DNA from: Brevinematales bacterium
Lineage (GTDB): Bacteria > Spirochaetota > Brevinematia > Brevinematales > Thermospiraceae
NCBI GenBank assembly: GCA_013177995.1
Contig: JABLXN010000033.1
Span: 1-32,389 of the forward strand
DNA: 32,389 nucleotides
Direction: 5' to 3'
In this document: piece after piece, positions 14,503 through 32,389 of the stretch
Layout: each line of letters starts with the position of its first letter
Position numbering within the stretch: position 1 is the first letter of the stretch
The notes under the pieces: generated by a model
Told to the model about the DNA's origin: nothing
The model's database searches: none
Seen by the model: the letters and a program-made list of their open reading frames with translations, nothing else
Translations under genes and position numbers: made by a program

Positions 14503-14552
14503 GAAACACTTTGGGAGCTTTTTGTGAAGATTTTCTCAATTTTTTCTTTTTT

Positions 14553-14754
14553 GAGACCCTTGCACAGGTGCTTTCTTGACCTTTCTGGGTCAGGGGCTAT
14601 GCCCCTGAAACCCCGCTTTTTCTGTTTACAAAGGCTTATTTGTCTTTTTTTATCTAAAAAATAGGCTTATTTATTATGGAAAGGAATATTTTTTATACTA
14701 TTTTCTGTTTTTTATTACTTTCTTGAGACCTTTGCACATTCGTGCAAAGGTCTC
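14553..14754 (-). mobile_element. Complete 202-bp MITE related to the IS5-family element
   Basis: Read on the minus strand it opens with a 30-bp hairpin (GAGACCTTTGCAC, a 4-nt loop, GTGCAAAGGTCTC; 14754-14725). It continues through an AT-rich part and a GGGGCATAGCCCC hairpin and ends with GTGCAAGGGTCTC at 14553. Its 13-bp ends match those of the IS5 element at 24319-25684, so it is probably moved by that transposase. Related partial copies lie at 128-238, ~23160-23271 and 32264-32389. It fills the gap between the divergent R-M and ruvA promoters; the hairpin followed by T's at 14755-14761 may act as a terminator for plus-strand transcription. Confidence 0.82.
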
Positions 14755-17081: not shown

Positions 17082-17411
17082 AAGTGGCTGTTTTTGGGAG
17101 AGGGGATGAGGGGGGATTGTGGGAGAAAGAGGGTGTTTTGCTGAAACATGGTAATAGCCAGAAAGTAATTTTTGCTGTTAAGCGAAAAGATACGTTTGGG
17201 GAAAGAAAAGACTTTTTTGCCTTTTCTATGAGGAGGAGGGTGGGGCTTTTTTCTTGTGGGGAGAGACTCTTTGTGATGGGATGGAGAGCACTTTTTATGT
17301 TCTCATATTGGCTTTTTATGTACCATTTTATCACAAAAAGAGAACAAAAACCTTGCAAAAAGTCCCTCTTTTGTCTATACTATAGGCAACCCTATGAAAA
17401 GGAGGAAGACC
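17082..17411. other. Intergenic region with one dispersed motif
   Basis: 330 bp between the recombinase and the RseC-like gene. An open frame runs through it from a TTG at 17078, but it has no ribosome-binding site or recognisable features and continues past the next gene's start, so I do not call it. The region holds one copy of the dispersed TTTTGCTGAAACA...ATAGCC motif (17136-17159) and the promoter for the next operon. Confidence 0.6.
17353..17381 (+). promoter_or_regulatory. Promoter of the RseC-DRTGG-PHP operon
   Basis: TTGCAA (17353-17358), 17-bp spacer, TATACT (17376-17381), 30 bp before the first ATG. Confidence 0.65.
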
Positions 17412-19091: not shown

Positions 19092-19420
19092 CAGTCACAG
19101 AAATCGCCAAAGCGCTTGGTTTTGAGGTGGTGAATACGAGTTATGCCGATGGGGAAGTGACGACGGGGTATACCTCTGATCTCTTGAGTGATGTGATGGC
19201 CAATGCGGAGGAGGGGTCTCTTTTGATAACTATTCAGGCCCATAAGAATACGATTGCGGTGGCCACGATGGTGGGGGCATCGGCTATTCTCATCTGCAAT
19301 GCCCGACAGATCCCAGAGGATATGATTCAGGCGGCGGATAGTGAGTCTCTTCCTCTTCTCAGGACACCTCTCAATCAGTATCAGGCTTCTTATCGCGTGC
19401 ATGATCTCATCAAGGCATGA
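19088..19420 (+). CDS. DRTGG-domain protein (second copy)
   Basis: 110 residues, a canonical stand-alone DRTGG domain with TTGYTSDLLSDVMANAEEG, IQAHKNTIAVATMVGASAILICN and LPLLRTPLNQYQASYRVHDL. It is closer to the family consensus than the first copy in this operon. It overlaps the upstream ATPase gene and the downstream PHP gene by 4 bp each. Confidence 0.85.
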   Translation: MTVTEIAKALGFEVVNTSYADGEVTTGYTSDLLSDVMANAEEGSLLITIQAHKNTIAVATMVGASAILICNARQIPEDMIQAADSESLPLLRTPLNQYQASYRVHDLIKA

Positions 19421-20151
19421 GGCTAAGGGCTGATCTTCATATCCACTCGTGTCTTTCTCCTTGTGGGAGTCTGGAGATGTCTCCAAAGCGGATCGTAGAG
19501 GAGGCTCTCTCTCGAGGTCTTGATATTGTGGCTCTCACGGATCACAATAGTGCACTCAATTGTCCGGCTTTTTTTTCCTATGCTCGACGAAAGGGTATTC
19601 TCCCCCTTTGTGGGCTTGAGGTCGCCTCTCGTGAGGAGGTGCATATTTTGGGGCTTTTTGAGAGCCCTGAGGAGGCGTTATCTGTAGGGGAGTGGGTGTA
19701 TGAGTCTCTTTCCCCTCTCTCGTTTGATCCTGAGAAGTATGGGGATCAGGTGTATGTGGATGAGGACGAGGTGGTGTTGGGTGAGGTGGAACGTTATCTT
19801 GGGCAGGCCTGTGGGTATTCACTGGAGGAGATTGTCAGGGCCATTCATGAGAGGGGGGGACTTGCCATTCCATCGCATATTGACAGGCCCGGTAGTGGGC
19901 TTCTGGATAATCTTGGGTTTCTTCTTGCCCCTGAAGAGACAGGCTTTGATGCGATTGAACTTTCCAAGAGTTATTGGCTCTCGCCCTATCCGATAGCGAA
20001 TATGGAGGGTTATCCCTGTGTGGCTTCGTCTGATGCCCACTATCCAGAGGGGATTGGGTGTCTTGTGACGGTGCTTGAGATGGAGGAGAAATCCTGGGAA
20101 GGGTTTTGTGAGGCACTGAAAGCGGGAAGAGTGGGGGTGGAAAGGGGGTGA
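19417..20151 (+). CDS. PHP-domain metal-dependent phosphoesterase
   Basis: 244 residues. The PHP metal-binding motifs are all present: His8 and His10 (DLHIHSCLSP), Asp42-His43 (TDHNS), Glu68 (GLEV), His76, then PSHIDRP and SSDAHY near the end. Free-standing PHP proteins hydrolyse phosphoesters such as nucleoside 3',5'-bisphosphates; the substrate here is unknown. It is the last gene of the operon. In many anaerobes the genes after this PHP gene encode a [FeFe]-hydrogenase; here a CRISPR remnant follows. Confidence 0.88.
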   Translation: MRLRADLHIHSCLSPCGSLEMSPKRIVEEALSRGLDIVALTDHNSALNCPAFFSYARRKGILPLCGLEVASREEVHILGLFESPEEALSVGEWVYESLSPLSFDPEKYGDQVYVDEDEVVLGEVERYLGQACGYSLEEIVRAIHERGGLAIPSHIDRPGSGLLDNLGFLLAPEETGFDAIELSKSYWLSPYPIANMEGYPCVASSDAHYPEGIGCLVTVLEMEEKSWEGFCEALKAGRVGVERG

Positions 20152-20216
20152 GATGGGGTGGTTTTTCAGGGGGTATTCTTGTTTGACGAAAGTGTCATTT
20201 TTCCTTTGCGAAATAA

Positions 20217-20244
20217 TTGACATTTTTTTGAAACTTCTTATAAT
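20217..20244 (+). promoter_or_regulatory. Strong promoter upstream of the hairpin RNA and cas1 fragment
   Basis: Perfect TTGACA (20217-20222), 16-bp spacer, perfect TATAAT (20239-20244). Transcription would start about 20251, at the first base of a hairpin. The same bases read on the minus strand form a T-rich tail after that hairpin, so the site could also serve as a minus-strand terminator. Confidence 0.7.
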
Positions 20245-20250
20245 AAAAAA

Positions 20251-20340
20251 TGCCACGCCCAAAAAAGCGTGGCAAGGTTGTCCCGTGGGACAATACCTGC
20301 GACCAGTAAGAGGTCTTACTGGAACTTGCAGAATCTATTG
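20251..20340. ncRNA. Candidate tracrRNA with CRISPR anti-repeat
   Basis: Three hairpins in a row: 20251-20274 (GCCACGC/GCGTGGC), 20278-20293 (TTGTCCC/GGGACAA) and 20303-20322 (CCAGTAAG/CTTACTGG). A CTGCGA/TTGCAG stem encloses the third. Bases 20319-20333 (CTGGAACTTGCAGAA) are an exact complement of 15 nt of the CRISPR repeats at 25696-25797, as expected for an anti-repeat. The strand is open. Plus: consensus promoter in front and a G-U pair that is A-C on the other strand; the anti-repeat would be 3', as in type V. Minus: the anti-repeat would be 5', followed by hairpins and a U-run, as in type II. Confidence 0.6.
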
Positions 20341-20366
20341 AAAATTTCCGAAATAGGAGAAAAACG

Positions 20367-20708
20367 ATGAAGCATATTCTTGTGACAGAATATGCTGAAT
20401 ACCTCAGACTTGAACAGGGGATGCTTTCTGTATGGCATGAGGGGAAAAAACAACGGGAGTATCCGCTCAGCAAAATCAAGACTCTCACCGTGTGCCGAAG
20501 GGGGGTGGGACTATCTTCTGATTTGATTGTTCAGTGTGCTCTTCGGGGTATTCGATTGTTTTTTCTTGATTTTCGCGGGATTCAGGTGGCAGGAGTTCTA
20601 CCTCTTAATACTCATGCTGTGAGCAAGGTGAGAAAAGCCCAGTTTGCTTTTATGGAAAGTCTGGGATCTCGAGAAAGGGCCAGGGCTTTTTTGGGGTATA
20701 ATCAGTAG
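20367..20708 (+). pseudogene. cas1: CRISPR-associated Cas1, N-terminal fragment
   Basis: 113 residues matching the N-terminal domain of the Cas1 integrase (usually about 300-340 residues). It opens with MKHILVTEYAEYL, followed by short beta strands, then VGLSSDLIVQCALRGIRLFFLDFRG and the start of the helical linker. The whole C-terminal catalytic domain, with the metal-binding Glu/His/Asp residues, is missing, so it cannot integrate spacers. The frame ends just before an abrupt change to very AT-rich sequence near 20705, the likely insertion point of foreign DNA. An AGGAG lies 9 bp before the ATG. The truncated N-terminus does not identify the CRISPR type. Confidence 0.85.
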
Positions 20709-20738
20709 AATTTTTAAGTTATAAAAAATTTTATACAT

Positions 20739-20774
20739 ATATAAGTTGTAGAATAGATAGGAAAGGAGGATTTT
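20739..20774 (+). repeat. Leader repeat in front of the first AT-rich gene
   Basis: ATATAAGTTGTAGAAT (20739-20754) followed by GATAGGAAAGGAGG and the ATG. The same arrangement recurs at 23272-23306 before the second AT-rich gene, which suggests a shared or duplicated control region. Confidence 0.65.
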
Positions 20775-21556
20775 ATGTATAGCCGAACAGATTATATTCT
20801 TACAGAGGAAGTTCTCAATAAATATGGTTTTGCTTTTATTGAAAGGAAAGATGTTTCTGGAAATGTTGAAGATATAGAAGGATTTAGTGAAAAAGAATAT
20901 GTAGATATATATAAAACATATACATATGGTCATATTAGTGGAATGTATAAGTTTGTTATTTATGTTTATTATATTGAAATTGATGGTGTTTTGTATCAGA
21001 AGTTAGAAAAAGCAATTGAAATTTATAAAGTTGATATAAAAAATTATACTCAAAGTTTGTATCATAAAGATGTTTTTAATTCTTTTGAAGATTATTTTAT
21101 AAATAATAGAGATTATTTTATTGGTTATGTATTTAATGTTTTTGGTAAACATACAATTTTTATTGGAGATTATTGTTTTTTGTCTCATAAATACGAATTT
21201 GGTGGATATTATTTACTGTTTTTTACACCAATTTATGCAAAATATTACTTTGATACATATCTTTTAGGTTATATACCTTTTTATAAAAAGACAAGGTTTA
21301 TTATTATGGAAGCAATAGATACTTGGTCTTTTGTGGTTGATATTGATGAATTTGATAGACTTTATAATGAAAGATATATTTCAACTTATTTTTATAGACC
21401 ATCTGCTGTTGAGCATTTAGTTAATACAGAAGATTTTACTGATTTATCAAAAGTGTTTTATTTCTTTAATAAAGCAATTGAAAGGTATCTTAAAAAGAAT
21501 GGTAAGGAAGAAGATTATAATAAATATTTTGCAAATATTAACTATGAAGAAGCATT

Positions 21557-23061
21557 GATTACGTTTCCAACAGGAGACCTGAAAGAGAGAGAAAAGGATA
21601 AAGAAGTTACCCCTGGCTCAAAAGATTTTTGTCAACTGTAGTATACAGGGAACATTTTAGATAAACAAGTTTTTTCTCTGAGGAAAAATCCCCCTTTCAG
21701 GCCATAAAACAGGGGAATAAGTACGTACTATTCCCATTTTTTTACATCACATCCTGCCAGTAGACACCATCGATAGCCTCATCACGGTTATAGTAGTAAT
21801 GCAAACGTACAGCAAGAACATTGGTTGCCCCTTCTCTTTTCCATACACCTACATCCATTCTCTGGTTTATGGTTCTCATCACCCGTTCTGCCCTTGAGGT
21901 TGTTCCTGGTAAACCTTCTTCACTGTCACAGGCAAACATGTCTTTTTGAGCACGTAGAAGATAATAAAAACAATGTTTATGCCTTTTTTCTTGAAATAAA
22001 GAGAGAAGATTCTGGATATGCTGCTTTCGCTGACTTTGATAGCCAAGTTTTGTTTGCCAGTCATTTTTATACCCCAAGAAACAGGCTTTTCCTGTTTCAG
22101 CGACAATATTTGTCCACTCACGAGAACGATATCTCACTCCATCAAGACGAAGAAAATGCTTCAATTGATAACTCACATGCCACAAACATCGTTGAAAAAC
22201 AATACCGGAATATTTGCCCTGGTTAATCCCTCTGTCTCCATCGACAACAAGAAAAAACCGAGAAAAAGAGTGTTTTTCTCGAATAGGCTTAAGAAGTTTG
22301 TCCCAACCTGCATGGTAATTATCCACAAGAAGGCCCGCTATTCTTGTATTTTTTCCTGTCAAAGGGGAGGCTTGTTGTCTCTCCTGCAAAAGAATTTTGA
22401 CCTCTTCTCCTTTTTTCTTGCTCTGAACAGGAATACCCGTTCCATCGGCCTCCCCACAGGGTTTTTCTTTTTCCGATAGGCTGAAATGTATCTTTTTCCC
22501 AATATTTTGAAGGTTTTTCCAGAGGGTGCTGAGGCCGATTTTATAGCCTGTGAAGGAAAGAATCCGGGCAGCTACTCGATAGGTGGTAAGAGCCCCAGCT
22601 AAAGCCACTCTGTAGATATCTTTCAGGATTTGTCTTTTTCGCTTTTCTACACCAAGAAGAGATCTCGTAAGAAAAAGTTTTCTTCCACACTTTTTGCATT
22701 GAATCTGGAGTTGAGGAAGAGTGATCTTTCCAAAGGGCATCAGAACAAAAACAGTGTTTTTTCCATGCTTTGTTTTCCATATGAAGTGATGTTTTTCTCC
22801 GCAGGTACAGGTGATATGACCTTTTTTTATTTCTTTTTCTGCCGCTTCTACAGAAATCTGATACACAAATGACTCAAACACTCCTTTGATAGCCTGGAGA
22901 AAAACCGCTACCAGTGTCTCAAGTTTTGTATCAGGGTAGTCAAAGTGAAGGTGAATTCTTTACGCATGGGTTCCTCCTTGTGTCCTATTATCGGCCAGGG
23001 AGGAACTTTTTTTGCTTTTCCTCATCTTCCCACTGCAGGTCTCCTGAAAAAAACGTTACCG
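21557..23061 (-). mobile_element. ISLre2/ISH6-like insertion sequence, 1505 bp
   Basis: The boundaries are set by an 8-bp direct duplication, GAAGCATT (21549-21556 and 23062-23069). They are also set by imperfect inverted ends: GATTACGTTT then CAGGAGACCTG on the left, GGTAACGTTT then CAGGAGACCTGC on the right, read inward. The left end recurs at 1-127. It carries one transposase gene on the minus strand. The 8-bp duplication and ~24-bp ends fit ISH6 better than classical ISLre2 (9 bp); family placement is tentative. Confidence 0.85.
21742..22967 (-). pseudogene. Transposase of the 1505-bp IS, probably frameshifted near its start
   Basis: The main frame (to 21742, 379 codons from a GTG at 22881) is a DDE-type transposase. 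It has a zinc-knuckle region (CTCG, CKKCG), a central VDGDRG, RCLWHVSYQL and a C-terminal GTTSRAERVMRTINQRM. The GTG has no usable ribosome-binding site, whereas a good AAGGAGG and ATG (22967) lie upstream. From that ATG the frame reads MRKEFTFT and stops after 19 codons, while the main frame can be followed back through HFDYPDTKLETLVAVFLQAI. A one-base shift around 22945 therefore separates start and body. Either the copy is dead or expression needs frameshifting; I favour a mutation. Confidence 0.75.
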
Positions 23062-23159
23062 AAGCATTACCAGAAGAAATATTTAGTGTTTCTAAAAAAT
23101 AATTATATAAAAATTTTTAAAAAATTTTTAAAAAAATATTCTTGTCAGCAATAAACAAT

Positions 23160-23271
23160 TCTATTTTTTTTGAATGAAAAAGACAAATAAGCCCTTGTAG
23201 AGAAAAAGTGGGGTTTCAGGGGCGTAGCCCCTGATCCAGATACAGGAAGAAAGTATTCCTGCAAGGGTCTC
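23160..23271 (+). repeat. Partial MITE copy (3' part)
   Basis: It matches the 3' half of the 202-bp MITE, including AAAAAGACAAATAAGCCC, the GGGGCGTAGCCCC hairpin and the terminal GCAAGGGTCTC ending at 23271. The 5' hairpin end is not present to the left, where only low-complexity A/T sequence is found (23104-23159). It sits flush against the leader of the next gene. Confidence 0.72.
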
Positions 23272-23306
23272 ATATAAGTTGTAGAATGATAGGAAAGGAG
23301 GTTTTT

Positions 23307-23792
23307 ATGAAATGGTTTAATGTGAGATTTCTTAAATACAAAAAAGGAAGAAGTATTTATTTTAAGGAAGATATTACAGGTAAAGAAGAAAGAGTTTTGA
23401 GTGGTAAAACCGATTTTGTTTGGGTTGTTCTTGGTGTTTTGTATGAAGGTTTTTGTAATTTAATTTTTATTTTCATTATTTCGTTTATTATTTATGGTAT
23501 GATACCATCAGCATTTTATGTTATGGTTCCCATTGCTGTTTTTCAATTATCAACTAAATCTTTTTATTCATTTTTCTTTATGTTATTTGCTATGTTTATG
23601 AATTCGCTTGTTTTATGGTTTGTTTTGTATATAAATTATATTTTATATGCTTTATTTTATAAAGGTGGATTTTCTATTCATAGGGCATTTGAAAAAATTA
23701 AACTTATTATTAAGTATAGAAAGAGTAAAGAATATGTAAGATTTATTTTAGACAATGAACCATATAAATTTTATGATTTATTGAGGAAATAG
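23307..23792 (+). CDS. Unrecognised membrane protein of the AT-rich island
   Basis: 161 residues, MKWFNVRF at the start, then a charged segment (residues ~10-35) and three or four hydrophobic segments (roughly 38-62, 66-85, 90-115), ending in a Lys/Arg-rich tail. An in-frame ATG at 23286 exists, but AAAGGAGG at 23293-23300 points to ATG 23307. The next gene begins 9 bp after its end and also encodes a protein starting MKWF, so the two are likely co-expressed. No family recognised. Confidence 0.7.
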   Translation: MKWFNVRFLKYKKGRSIYFKEDITGKEERVLSGKTDFVWVVLGVLYEGFCNLIFIFIISFIIYGMIPSAFYVMVPIAVFQLSTKSFYSFFFMLFAMFMNSLVLWFVLYINYILYALFYKGGFSIHRAFEKIKLIIKYRKSKEYVRFILDNEPYKFYDLLRK

Positions 23793-23801
23793 GAGGTTTA
23801 T

Positions 23802-24227
23802 ATGAAATGGTTTGATAGATTTGCAACAATTTTCTTTGTGTATAGTTTTGTTATTATTTCTGTTTTGTGGTATGCTAATAATAACAAAGAGATTAAATAT
23901 TATAACAATTTATATGATTATAATGTAAAAATTGTTAGATTATTTTTAAAAGAAACATTGATTGATTTTTTAAATGGTGTAAAAGATAATAATGATTTTT
24001 CAATTCTTGAAGCATATAAAATTTTTGATAAAAAGTTTAATTATTTATATTTATTACCAGAGTATGTAAGAAATTTATTTAATTATGATTTTATGTCATA
24101 TTATGAACCAGTTAGAAGTGATTTTACTGGTTTTTATTATAATCATGTTATAATTACGAATGATTTTGATAAGTATTATGAAAAAGTGGTTTCAAATTTA
24201 TATTTATGGAGGAGTTATGATAAATAA
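23802..24227 (+). CDS. Unrecognised membrane-anchored protein of the AT-rich island
   Basis: 141 residues. One N-terminal hydrophobic segment (residues ~7-26) serves as membrane anchor or uncleaved signal. It is followed by a Tyr/Asn/Asp-rich soluble part with no motif I recognise. It has an AGGAGG ribosome-binding site and very AT-rich codons. A further start with GGAGG lies at ATG 24217 inside its end, but that frame soon enters sequence of different composition and then the IS5 element; if a third gene existed it has been lost. Confidence 0.68.
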   Translation: MKWFDRFATIFFVYSFVIISVLWYANNNKEIKYYNNLYDYNVKIVRLFLKETLIDFLNGVKDNNDFSILEAYKIFDKKFNYLYLLPEYVRNLFNYDFMSYYEPVRSDFTGFYYNHVIITNDFDKYYEKVVSNLYLWRSYDK

Positions 24228-24399: not shown

Positions 24400-24427
24400 T
24401 TGAAATTAAAAGAAAATGTGTTATACT
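24400..24427 (+). promoter_or_regulatory. Transposase promoter inside the IS5 element
   Basis: TTGAAA (24400-24405), 16-bp spacer, TATACT (24422-24427). Confidence 0.5.
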
Positions 24428-24459
24428 ATAAGGCAGGAACGAGGCAAGAGGAGGCCCAT

Positions 24460-25500
24460 ATGCCAATCAAAACGAGCAGCCCAGGATTTTCCGATTATGA
24501 AATCGAGTTAAAGAGAAAACCGAAGAAAAGCATTTTAGATAAAATCAATCAACTTATTGACTGGTATGAAATTGAGAAGATTTTATCTCATTCCTACAAG
24601 GCGGGGAAAAGCCCCAAAGGAGAAAAAGCCTATCCTCCGCTGATTATGTTCAAAGTCCTTATTCTTCAGCATCTCTATAACCTTTCTGATGAGCAAGCGG
24701 AAGAATCACTTCGAGACAGGCTTTCCTTTCTCAGGTTTTGTGGTTTCCATGTGAGCGATGAAATTCCTGATTATACCACAATTTGTCGTTTTCGGAATAG
24801 ACTCTTGAAACTTGATCTTTATCAGGTACTTTTTGATGAATTTAACAAGCAACTTGAGGAGAAGGGACTTATTGTGAAGAAGGGTACACTTATTGATGCT
24901 ACAGTGATAAAGAGTTCTCGACGACCTAAAAAGACAGTTGATGCCAGGATATTGCCGGAAGATAGAAAAGAGGAGGATCAGCAAGAGGGAAAGGAAAATT
25001 CTTCGGAGATAAGATATTCTGATGATAAAGACGCTCGATATCTTAAGAAAGGGAATCAGGTATTTTATGGATACAAATCTCATGTAGCGGTTGATGGGCA
25101 GGGAAGGTTTATTATAGGGGGGCATATGACGCCAGCAAATGTTCCGGATATGAAGGAGATGGGAAAACTTTTGAAAAATCTCAAGTTACGTGAGGGGAGT
25201 TTTGTTGTGGCGGATAAGGGTTATGCATGGGCAGAAAATGTAAAACTTGTGAGGCAACAGGGTTTCGTGAACTTTATTATGAAAAAAGCGGCGAGGAATA
25301 GACCTCTCACAGAGAAAGAGAAGAAGCAAAACAAAGCGATAAGTACGCTTCGTTATCGAATTGAGCAGGTGTTTGGACATCTGAAAAAGCATATGGGATT
25401 TGAGAGAGTAAGGTATGTTGGACTCGAAAAAGCTCAGATAGAGTTTCAACTCAAGGCGATGGCTTATAATCTCAAGATGGCAGCCCTTATGCTTGCATAA
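24460..25500 (+). CDS. IS5-family transposase
   Basis: 346 residues, intact. The N-terminal domain has the typical YPPLIMFKVLILQHLYNLSD and ESLRDRLSFLRFCGF, followed by PDYTTICRFRNRL. The DDE triad is Asp146 (GTLIDATVI), Asp252 (VVADKGYAW) and Glu302 (LRYRIEQVFGHLK). A longer frame begins with a TTG at 24400 inside the promoter. The AGAGGAGG at 24447-24454 selects ATG 24460. With intact ends and gene, this element may be active and could mobilise the MITEs. Confidence 0.93.
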   Translation: MPIKTSSPGFSDYEIELKRKPKKSILDKINQLIDWYEIEKILSHSYKAGKSPKGEKAYPPLIMFKVLILQHLYNLSDEQAEESLRDRLSFLRFCGFHVSDEIPDYTTICRFRNRLLKLDLYQVLFDEFNKQLEEKGLIVKKGTLIDATVIKSSRRPKKTVDARILPEDRKEEDQQEGKENSSEIRYSDDKDARYLKKGNQVFYGYKSHVAVDGQGRFIIGGHMTPANVPDMKEMGKLLKNLKLREGSFVVADKGYAWAENVKLVRQQGFVNFIMKKAARNRPLTEKEKKQNKAISTLRYRIEQVFGHLKKHMGFERVRYVGLEKAQIEFQLKAMAYNLKMAALMLA

Positions 25501-25695: not shown

Positions 25696-25797
25696 GTCAT
25701 ATTATAAGGTCTTTTTTCTGCAAGTTCCAGCTTCTGAGATAGCCTATAGACAAAATTCAGAGTCATATTATAAGGCCTTTTTTCTGCAAGTTCCAGC
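25696..25797. CRISPR. Two-repeat CRISPR remnant
   Basis: Two 36-bp repeats (25696-25731 and 25762-25797), identical except at the 15th base (T/C), flank a 30-bp spacer (25732-25761). The length pattern is that of class 2, especially type II. Read on the minus strand each repeat starts GCTGGAACTTGCAGAA and contains TATAAT near its end, 17 bp after TGGAAC. That would be a built-in promoter firing into the next spacer, as known for type II-C arrays. The 15 nt complementary to the candidate tracrRNA at 20319-20333 lie in this part. The left repeat ends 11 bp from the IS5 element, which may have removed further units. Confidence 0.75.
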
Positions 25798-25976
25798 TCA
25801 TCATACAAAGGCACGCAATCAACGCCGTTAGTGTCGTTTCAATCAAACTGTTCAGGTGTGAGTAAGAGGATAAATTTGACCTTCGTACTATATCCTCTCC
25901 ACAGGAAAGTTTCAAAGGGTATGACCTAAAGGGGGGATGAGATTTTTCAGCAGGTGTGATAGCCTGCACGGCAGGA

Positions 25977-26230: not shown

Positions 26231-26694
26231 GCTATTACCCTGTTTCAGCTAAACCATGGTTCTTTGCTGAAACATCGTCATAGCCTTTTTCCTGCCCCTG
26301 CTCGCGGTGCCACCTGAGAGAAGCCCCGGCAGGGGACACGTGCCAGGCGGACCTGGTGGGAGAGGGCTATGTTCTTTCACCCCCCCCTTTTTTTCTGTAC
26401 CCCACTTCGACTTCGCTCAGTACCCACCGGGCCGCTTTTGCGGTAGTGTGTCCTTTGCCGTGGAGTGGGAAAGTCCTTCCGAAGTGAGGGCACAGGAGGT
26501 GCCCGTGGCGACCTCTTGTGTTGCTTTTGCCCTCAAGCCCACCGAAGCGGAGCCGCGGGGGTTTTGCTGAAACAGAGTAATAGCCGTGGTCGGCTTTTCT
26601 CCCTGAAACAAGGTGATAGCCACTGCTTGAGTTTGTATGGGGAGAGATTAAACGTTCAACCCATGGGGTGTTTTGCTGAAACAAGGTCATAGCC
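26231..26694. repeat. Cluster of the TTTTGCTGAAACA...ATAGCC motif
   Basis: Five copies of a ~24-bp motif with consensus TTTTGCTGAAACA, two variable bases, GT, one variable base, ATAGCC. They lie at 26231-26253 (minus), 26263-26285, 26562-26585, 26602-26621 (missing the first bases) and 26671-26694. A sixth lies far away at 17136-17159. Spacing is irregular. Confidence 0.65.
26263..26352 (+). repeat. GC-rich duplicated block, left copy
   Basis: Starts with the ATAGCC motif and continues through CTGCCCCTGC, GCGGTGC, GAGAAGCCCCGG and GACACGTGCC. The same order of segments recurs at 26672-26760 with more divergence and small insertions. Confidence 0.6.
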
Positions 26695-27355: not shown

Positions 27356-27384
27356 TTGCATTTCTTTTCCCTTTGCCGTATAAT
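27356..27384 (+). promoter_or_regulatory. ileS promoter
   Basis: TTGCAT (27356-27361), 17-bp spacer, TATAAT (27379-27384). The leader to the ATG is only about 28 nt, so there is no room for a T-box riboswitch. Confidence 0.7.
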
Positions 27385-31590: not shown

Positions 31591-32124
31591 TTAGAGCCAT
31601 TTGATGATGGCAGTGGAGAGAGAAAAAAGAATACCAATAAACCACATCATCATCGTAAACCTTTTATTCATATCATCAAATCGTTTATTCATGTCTTCGA
31701 AACGCTTATCCATAGTTTCAAATCTTTTATTCATATCTTCAAATCGCTTATCCATAGTTTCAAATCTTTTATTCATGTCCTCGAATCGCTTGTCAATTGC
31801 TTCAAATCGTTTATTCATATCTTCAAAGCGCTTATCGATTGCTTCGAACCGTTTATTCATATCTTCAAAGCGTTTATCAATAACCTCAAAGCGCTTTTCC
31901 AGAGCTTCAAAACGAGTATTCATGACCTCCACGACGGTTTTCAGGTCACTTCGGATGCCCTGGAGTTCAAGAACAATACGATTCTCTTTTTGCTGGGCTG
32001 TTTCTTTCATTTCTACCTGGTTCAGCAAAAGCGTGAGAAAATGCCTTGCTGATTCTTTGTCTTTTTTCTCAAGCACTTCAAGAAATTCTTCTTCAAGAAC
32101 TTCATACATTTCTTGAGTGAGCAT
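31591..32124 (-). CDS. Heptad-repeat coiled-coil protein with C-terminal membrane anchor
   Basis: 177 residues. Residues ~65-155 consist of about a dozen near-perfect seven-residue units of the type KRFEDMN / KRFEAID, predicting a long coiled-coil rod. The last ~20 residues (MMMWFIGILFSLSTAIIKWL) form one membrane segment, so the rod is tail-anchored. The DNA shows the units as 21-bp tandem repeats (about 31660-31920), which can gain or lose units by slippage. A GGAGG precedes the ATG at 32124. Similar short tail-anchored coiled-coil proteins (DUF1640-like) are common; function unknown. It faces glmM convergently with 42 bp between them. Confidence 0.85.
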   Translation of the reverse strand: MLTQEMYEVLEEEFLEVLEKKDKESARHFLTLLLNQVEMKETAQQKENRIVLELQGIRSDLKTVVEVMNTRFEALEKRFEVIDKRFEDMNKRFEAIDKRFEDMNKRFEAIDKRFEDMNKRFETMDKRFEDMNKRFETMDKRFEDMNKRFDDMNKRFTMMMWFIGILFSLSTAIIKWL

Positions 32125-32263: not shown

Positions 32264-32389
32264 GAGACCTTTGCACGAATGTGCAAAGGTCTCAAAAAAG
32301 TAATAAAGAAACAAAAATTAGTATCAAAATATTCCGTGCTGTAATAAATAAACCAATTTTTTTGAATAAAAAAGACAAACCGGCCCTTG
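32264..32389 (+). mobile_element. MITE copy truncated by the window edge
   Basis: Opens with the same 30-bp hairpin as the complete copy (GAGACCTTTGCAC, GAAT, GTGCAAAGGTCTC at 32264-32293). It continues through AAGTAATAAAG, ATAATAAATAAACC-like sequence and AAAAAGACAAA, in the same order as the minus strand of 14754-14553. The 3' half should lie just beyond the window. Confidence 0.8.

Follow-up and report, generated by a model that had tools for sequence, protein, structure and literature searches.

A probable orphan type II tracrRNA gene, II-C-like and fossil, beside a truncated II-B-type cas1 in a Brevinematales genome

The DNA analysed here (the window) is a whole contig of 32,389 nt (C27) from the draft genome of a Brevinematales bacterium (2.38 Mb in 57 contigs, with completeness rated at 100%). 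A PHP-domain gene (19417–20151, plus strand), which adjoins cas9 in the sister species G001, was used as syntenic anchor. It is followed by a structured segment and by a cas1 gene of II-B kind truncated at its 3′ end (20367–20708, plus strand, 113 aa). Past the cas1 break lie AT-rich small ORFs without family matches, two transposases and a two-repeat CRISPR array. The transposases, one ISH6-like (21742–22881, minus strand; NCBIfam 1.3e-39, below the curated cut-off) and one of the IS5 family (24400–25500, plus strand; NCBIfam 1.8e-84, above the cut-off), occupy the gap left by the 3′ end of cas1 and the remaining operon. The AT-rich small genes (20775–24227) are set into the CRISPR relic and gave no Pfam or NCBIfam match; two of them share one leader, ATATAAGTTGTAGAAT..GATAGGAAAGGAGG. 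Just past the ISH6-like transposase, positions 22937–23063 match the end of contig C7 (L028:4-130), beside a type I-B locus, at 99% identity, which suggests a recently mobile element.

Other repeats are dispersed over the window. Copies of a repeat with the core GCTGAAACANNGTNATAGCC were located at 17131–17159, 26257–26285, 26557–26585, 26593–26621 and 26666–26694, and inverted at 26231–26255. With at most one mismatch, 238 copies were counted in the genome (118 on the plus and 120 on the minus strand), against 6 and 3 in two sister species and none in G007. Several of them are paired in inverted orientation at a distance of about 36 nt, and the repeat looks like a REP-type family expanded in this species. 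A second dispersed element of about 100–200 bp lies at 128–238, 14552–14754, 23120–23272 and 32264–32389, the last copy ending the contig; its identity to DNA that flanks the type III-A cas1 of contig C1 is 79–91%. In-frame 21-bp tandem repeats at 31591–32124 encode a repetitive coiled-coil-like protein (DKRFEDMNKRFE...).

The array is read on the minus strand and consists of two 36-nt repeats with a period of 66 nt. Copy 1 (GCTGGAACTTGCAGAAAAAAGGCCTTATAATATGAC, 25762–25797) and copy 2 (GCTGGAACTTGCAGAAAAAAGACCTTATAATATGAC, 25696–25731) differ at one base (C-to-T on the plus strand, G-to-A on the minus strand). The sequence between them (25732–25761, minus strand) is the sole remaining spacer, of 30 nt. 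It gave no exact match in viral contigs and no convincing match in phages. The repeat core was not found as an array elsewhere in the genome. The repeat pattern had one isolated match in viral contigs, on a phage-like contig and without an array, which was set aside as chance. A possible leader promoter, TTGAAA-17-TATAGT, reads into the array at 25887–25915 (minus strand), its 10/12 match being close to what such scans give by chance.

Between the PHP gene and cas1, both strands were scanned for promoters from 20100 to 20760. The only promoter-like site was a consensus sigma-70-type promoter, TTGACA-16-TATAAT (12/12 match), at 20217–20244 on the plus strand. Its expected start coincides with the foot of the first of three strong hairpins. 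The plus-strand fold of 20240–20366 reached −45.8 kcal/mol (z −7.1), and none of 200 shuffles was as stable; the minus-strand fold reached −42.5 kcal/mol (z −5.85). In the plus view, the third hairpin contains CTGGAACTTGCAGAA (20319–20333). The reverse complement of this 15-mer occurs exactly in both repeats, 5.4 kb away (25716–25730 and 25782–25796). No further match was found in the window at up to three mismatches, a looseness at which shuffles give 1.3. Over the whole genome, the 16-nt core with at most one mismatch was found at four sites: the two repeats, the anti-repeat and a site within an open reading frame on a different contig. The preliminary description of this segment, made from the letters of the sequence, had named the consensus promoter, the three hairpins, the 15-nt complement to the repeats and a broken cas1 behind them; each of these was borne out. 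It had also called the segment tracrRNA-like and orphan and left the strand open, listing arguments for the plus strand with a type V geometry. The likeness and the orphan state were upheld by the analyses below. Of the arguments for the plus strand, the promoter is real, but homology, duplex and terminator favour the minus strand.

Read on the minus strand, the segment shows the layout of a type II tracrRNA: anti-repeat, nexus-like hairpin, second hairpin and terminator, in this order. The gene, as matched to its homologue in G006 (see below), would extend over 20244–20342. The anti-repeat UUCUGCAAGUUCCAG (20319–20333) is exactly complementary to both repeats, and a G-U pair with U20318 extends it, so that in the cofold the minus-strand RNA pairs with repeat nt 1–16 (16 pairs). 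The energy of this duplex was −27.9 kcal/mol, as compared with a mean of −8.1 and a minimum of −19.1 for shuffles. The duplex begins at repeat base 1 with the G-U pair, and AAG and a 4-bp nexus-like stem come next. Cas9 guide RNAs typically show such a terminal G-U pair with AAG behind it. In the crRNA-bound fold, the nexus-like hairpin is GACC-UCUUACU-GGUC (20301–20315). The second hairpin is GGUAUUGUCC-CACG-GGACAACC (20276–20297; cofold), whose inner UCC-NACG-GGA is kept in G006. An intrinsic terminator, a 10-pair stem followed by TTTTTT (20245–20274), aligns with the terminator of the G006 tracrRNA. The U-run may be, at least partly, a by-product of the A-run behind the plus-strand −10 box, and the ileS promoter at 27356 likewise carries TATAATAAAAA. 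Upstream of the anti-repeat, no minus-strand promoter site was better than 7/12. With no recognisable promoter on this strand, the gene probably lost its own promoter together with cas9. An Rfam scan of the window matched only a tRNA.

The homologue was found in a genome of the same order, G006, which has an intact II-C cas9 (713 bits). It also keeps cas1, cas2 and 15 repeats GCTGGGACTTGTGGATTTTTTTAACTAAGGTATAAT with a period of 66 nt; these repeats and the cas genes lie on opposite strands. Its tracrRNA gene (L095:11123-11213, plus strand) lies directly upstream of, and divergent from, cas9 and comprises a promoter (TTGACT..TAGAAT), the anti-repeat ATCCACAAGCCCTAGT, AAG, hairpins and a terminator. 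The G006 repeats begin with GCTGGGACTTG; they have the first 11 nt in common with the window repeats (10/11), as well as the 36-nt length and the 66-nt period. With the window sequence as its only input, a covariance model (R2; minus strand, 99 nt) was made and applied to loci of the genus, order and phylum, 356 kb in total. The covariance search of relatives proposed earlier thus gave one significant match, the G006 tracrRNA, at 32 bits (E=1.2e-4, with calibration short and E-values rough). The match runs end to end, terminator included, and with the filters off on the G006 locus E was 5.4e-6. Plain local alignment of the two sequences scored 24, a value reached in 15/1000 shuffles on the minus strand and 61/1000 on the plus strand; the support for homology therefore comes mainly from structure and sequence together. 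A mirror model of the plus strand likewise picks out the corresponding mirror site of G006 (27.3 bits), so the covariance model alone cannot choose the strand. A likeness between the plus promoter of the window and the G006 tracrRNA promoter was discounted as the generic resemblance of T-rich promoters.

Conservation of the RNA had been expected in relatives with the same repeat, and G006, the sole other genome found with this repeat type, does conserve it. Among 393 genomes of the phylum, the tandem pattern GCTGGNNCTTG had 13 matches in G006 and one, the repeat pair, in the window's genome; it occurred in array fashion only there, and the single matches in three further genomes were chance-like. 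Because both genomes served to design the pattern, its distribution shows rarity and is no independent support. Outside G006 no clear homologue of the RNA was found, so that conservation rests on one relative. A two-sequence model (R1) run on 296 genomes gave three weak extra matches at gene ends away from cas genes, which were treated as terminators. A fourth, also weak (17.7 bits; E=0.066 in a search of 243 kb), immediately precedes a cas9 in L097 in divergent orientation and may be a distant tracrRNA. DNA searches for the segment in 40 relatives returned promoter-like or chance pieces only, and plasmid records gave no match.

The cas1 fragment starts 33 nt from the anti-repeat and is of another subtype. 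It matched the Pfam Cas1 profile (48.9 bits) over the first third only, ending at profile position 103/283, and its similarity to Cas1 ends at about residue 109 (window position 20693). With the Cas1 from the II-B locus of G007 it shares 73% identity. In the Cas1 tree, of which the fragment fills 31% of the alignment columns, the two group together (100/99) inside the II-B clade (100/99) and apart from the II-C Cas1s; the window therefore does not carry a II-C-type Cas1. A search of the genome contigs with the fragment gave one distant Nitrospirales match. The G007 locus (L035) has the order cas9/csx12 (446 bits, above the curated cut-off), cas1, cas2, cas4, array. In G001 (C6, L048:1-325), a II-B cas9 begins right after the PHP gene; the contig ends inside this cas9, and the remainder of the locus is missing from the assembly. 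A promoter similar to the plus promoter of the window lies between the PHP gene and cas9 of G001. With a II-B cas9 promoter in the equivalent place, the plus promoter of the window can be explained otherwise than by a plus-strand RNA and, by analogy, probably belonged to the former cas operon.

Seven II-B or II-B-like loci are present in the phylum (L035, L049, L050, L051, L077, L078, L079), one of them cut off before the array. Their repeats are of the GTTTCAG type, 37 nt long with a period of about 71–75 nt, and a tracrRNA-like anti-repeat lies between cas4 and the array. Hairpins such as CCCTCC..GGAGGG in some of these loci, and palindrome-like TTCGAAA/TTTGCGAAA motifs, were also seen in this interval. 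The window RNA was considered as a II-B tracrRNA and rejected as such: the seven II-B tracrRNA regions, inspected with local scores for two, were unlike it.

No significant remains of cas2, cas4 or cas9 were detected in the window by tblastn, the only real match being the cas1 residues up to 20693. The preliminary description had also proposed a search of the rest of the genome for the effector and the repeat. In the 57 contigs of the draft, cas9 was found neither with a II-B protein query nor with a II-A/C family model, and the window RNA is therefore regarded as an orphan; no further array of the repeat was present either. The remaining cas1 genes of the genome are parts of I-B and III-A loci, two types that are not known to use a tracrRNA.

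Our preferred reading, to which we give a probability of about three in four, is that the segment is an orphan type II (II-C-like) tracrRNA gene on the minus strand, most likely a fossil, in a mosaic relic. The minus strand is favoured because of the anatomy of the G006 gene, the geometry of the duplex in the window and the minus-strand terminator. As a II-C-like tracrRNA and array stand beside a II-B-type cas1, the window is a cross-subtype mosaic. The junction lies between the anti-repeat and the start codon of cas1, in a 33-nt interval that by analogy with G006 would be expected to hold a tracrRNA promoter and a cas9. In the working system, the 5′ anti-repeat would have paired with the first 16 nt of the repeat in the crRNA (5′-GCUGGAACUUGCAGAA-3′). 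The tracrRNA:crRNA duplex would then have been processed, and Cas9 would have bound the nexus and the hairpins. In known systems such duplexes are processed by RNase III. With cas9 gone, the promoter apparently lost, cas1 cut and the array reduced to two repeats, the segment is most likely a fossil whose RNA is transcribed weakly or not at all. That stems and anti-repeat are undamaged suggests a recent loss and does not by itself imply a continuing function.

The main rival, though an unlikely one, is a plus-strand type V tracrRNA in a Cas12l-like locus (effector, tracrRNA, cas1, cas2, cas4, array) whose upstream effector was deleted. In Cas12l loci, which have a II-B-like gene order, the tracrRNA lies on the coding strand between the effector and cas1, directly upstream of the latter (PMC9724661). 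The perfect plus promoter at the right distance and the II-B-like cas1 agree with such an arrangement; the homologous, II-C cas9-linked tracrRNA of G006, however, has the sense of the window's minus strand, and no plus-strand terminator follows the anti-repeat in 20100–20760. The duplex also speaks for the minus strand. A G-U pair had been put forward in favour of the plus strand, and this holds for the free fold but not for the duplex with the repeat, where the extra G-U pair on the minus strand gives 16 pairs, against 15 on the plus strand. At the 3′ end of the repeat, the 15-bp plus duplex would lie directly against the spacer, whereas for tracrRNA-using type V systems a short duplex of 5–7 bp is described at the spacer-proximal end (PMC11246509). 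No Cas12 effector gene is apparent within the window.

That the RNA is still made and used, either by a Cas9 supplied in trans (from a mobile element) for silencing or guiding or as a regulatory RNA, is distinctly unlikely. A continuing role at another locus or in regulation had been raised in the preliminary description, and the stems and anti-repeat are indeed undamaged despite the loss of cas9; a recent loss would equally leave them intact. The suggestion found no support: neither cas9 nor a minus-strand promoter was detected, I-B and III-A systems are not known to use a tracrRNA, and the RNA was seen in just two species of the searched set. We consider very improbable a natural hybrid in which a II-C-like Cas9 and tracrRNA once worked with a II-B-type cas1-cas2-cas4 and the tracrRNA has since been kept for a Cas9-independent or trans-acting role. 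There is hardly any case for the alternative that the segment is no tracrRNA gene but belonged to the former cas operon as an attenuator-like leader with an acquired repeat-like piece: promoter and hairpins do stand directly before cas1 on the plus strand, but such a leader would leave the exact 15-nt anti-repeat and the end-to-end homology to a cas9-linked tracrRNA to be accounted for.

Reading the segment as an orphan II-C-like tracrRNA gene settles the identity of a striking structured stretch and most likely also its strand. Most likely, the window RNA is what an immune system left behind, a fossil in good preservation, and not a new class of RNA. The locus captures type II decay together with the mixing of modules: a II-C-like guide-RNA part has a II-B-type cas1 as its neighbour, and in the sister species G001 the corresponding site retains a II-B cas9. 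Exchange of cas9 in situ beside a stable cas1 has already been described (PMC12669027), so that the mosaic represents a known process in an unusual form, across subtypes. If the orphan RNA were expressed, it would allow a test of whether tracrRNAs outlive Cas9.

Among known systems, Cas12l loci resemble the window in having a noncoding RNA directly upstream of cas1 and a nexus-like hairpin beside the anti-repeat; they differ in the coding-strand tracrRNA, the terminator-like hairpin after the anti-repeat and the type V effector, none of which is shown in the window. The II-B loci of G007 (L035) and G001 (C6) have a cas1 clade (G007) and an equivalent chromosomal site (G001) in common with it, but their repeat type and the position of their tracrRNA, between cas4 and the array, are unlike those of the window. 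The G006 tracrRNA has its promoter and cas9, whereas that of the window adjoins a II-B-type cas1, with no cas9 or promoter of its own found. Like the window RNA, the G006 tracrRNA is directly upstream of, and divergent from, the cas operon. Both genomes carry 36-nt repeats of the form GCTGGRACTTG... with a period of 66 nt (a 30-nt spacer in the two-copy array of the window), and the two RNAs have in common the anti-repeat, the AAG at the start of the nexus, the UCC-NACG-GGA hairpin and the terminator, in identical order.
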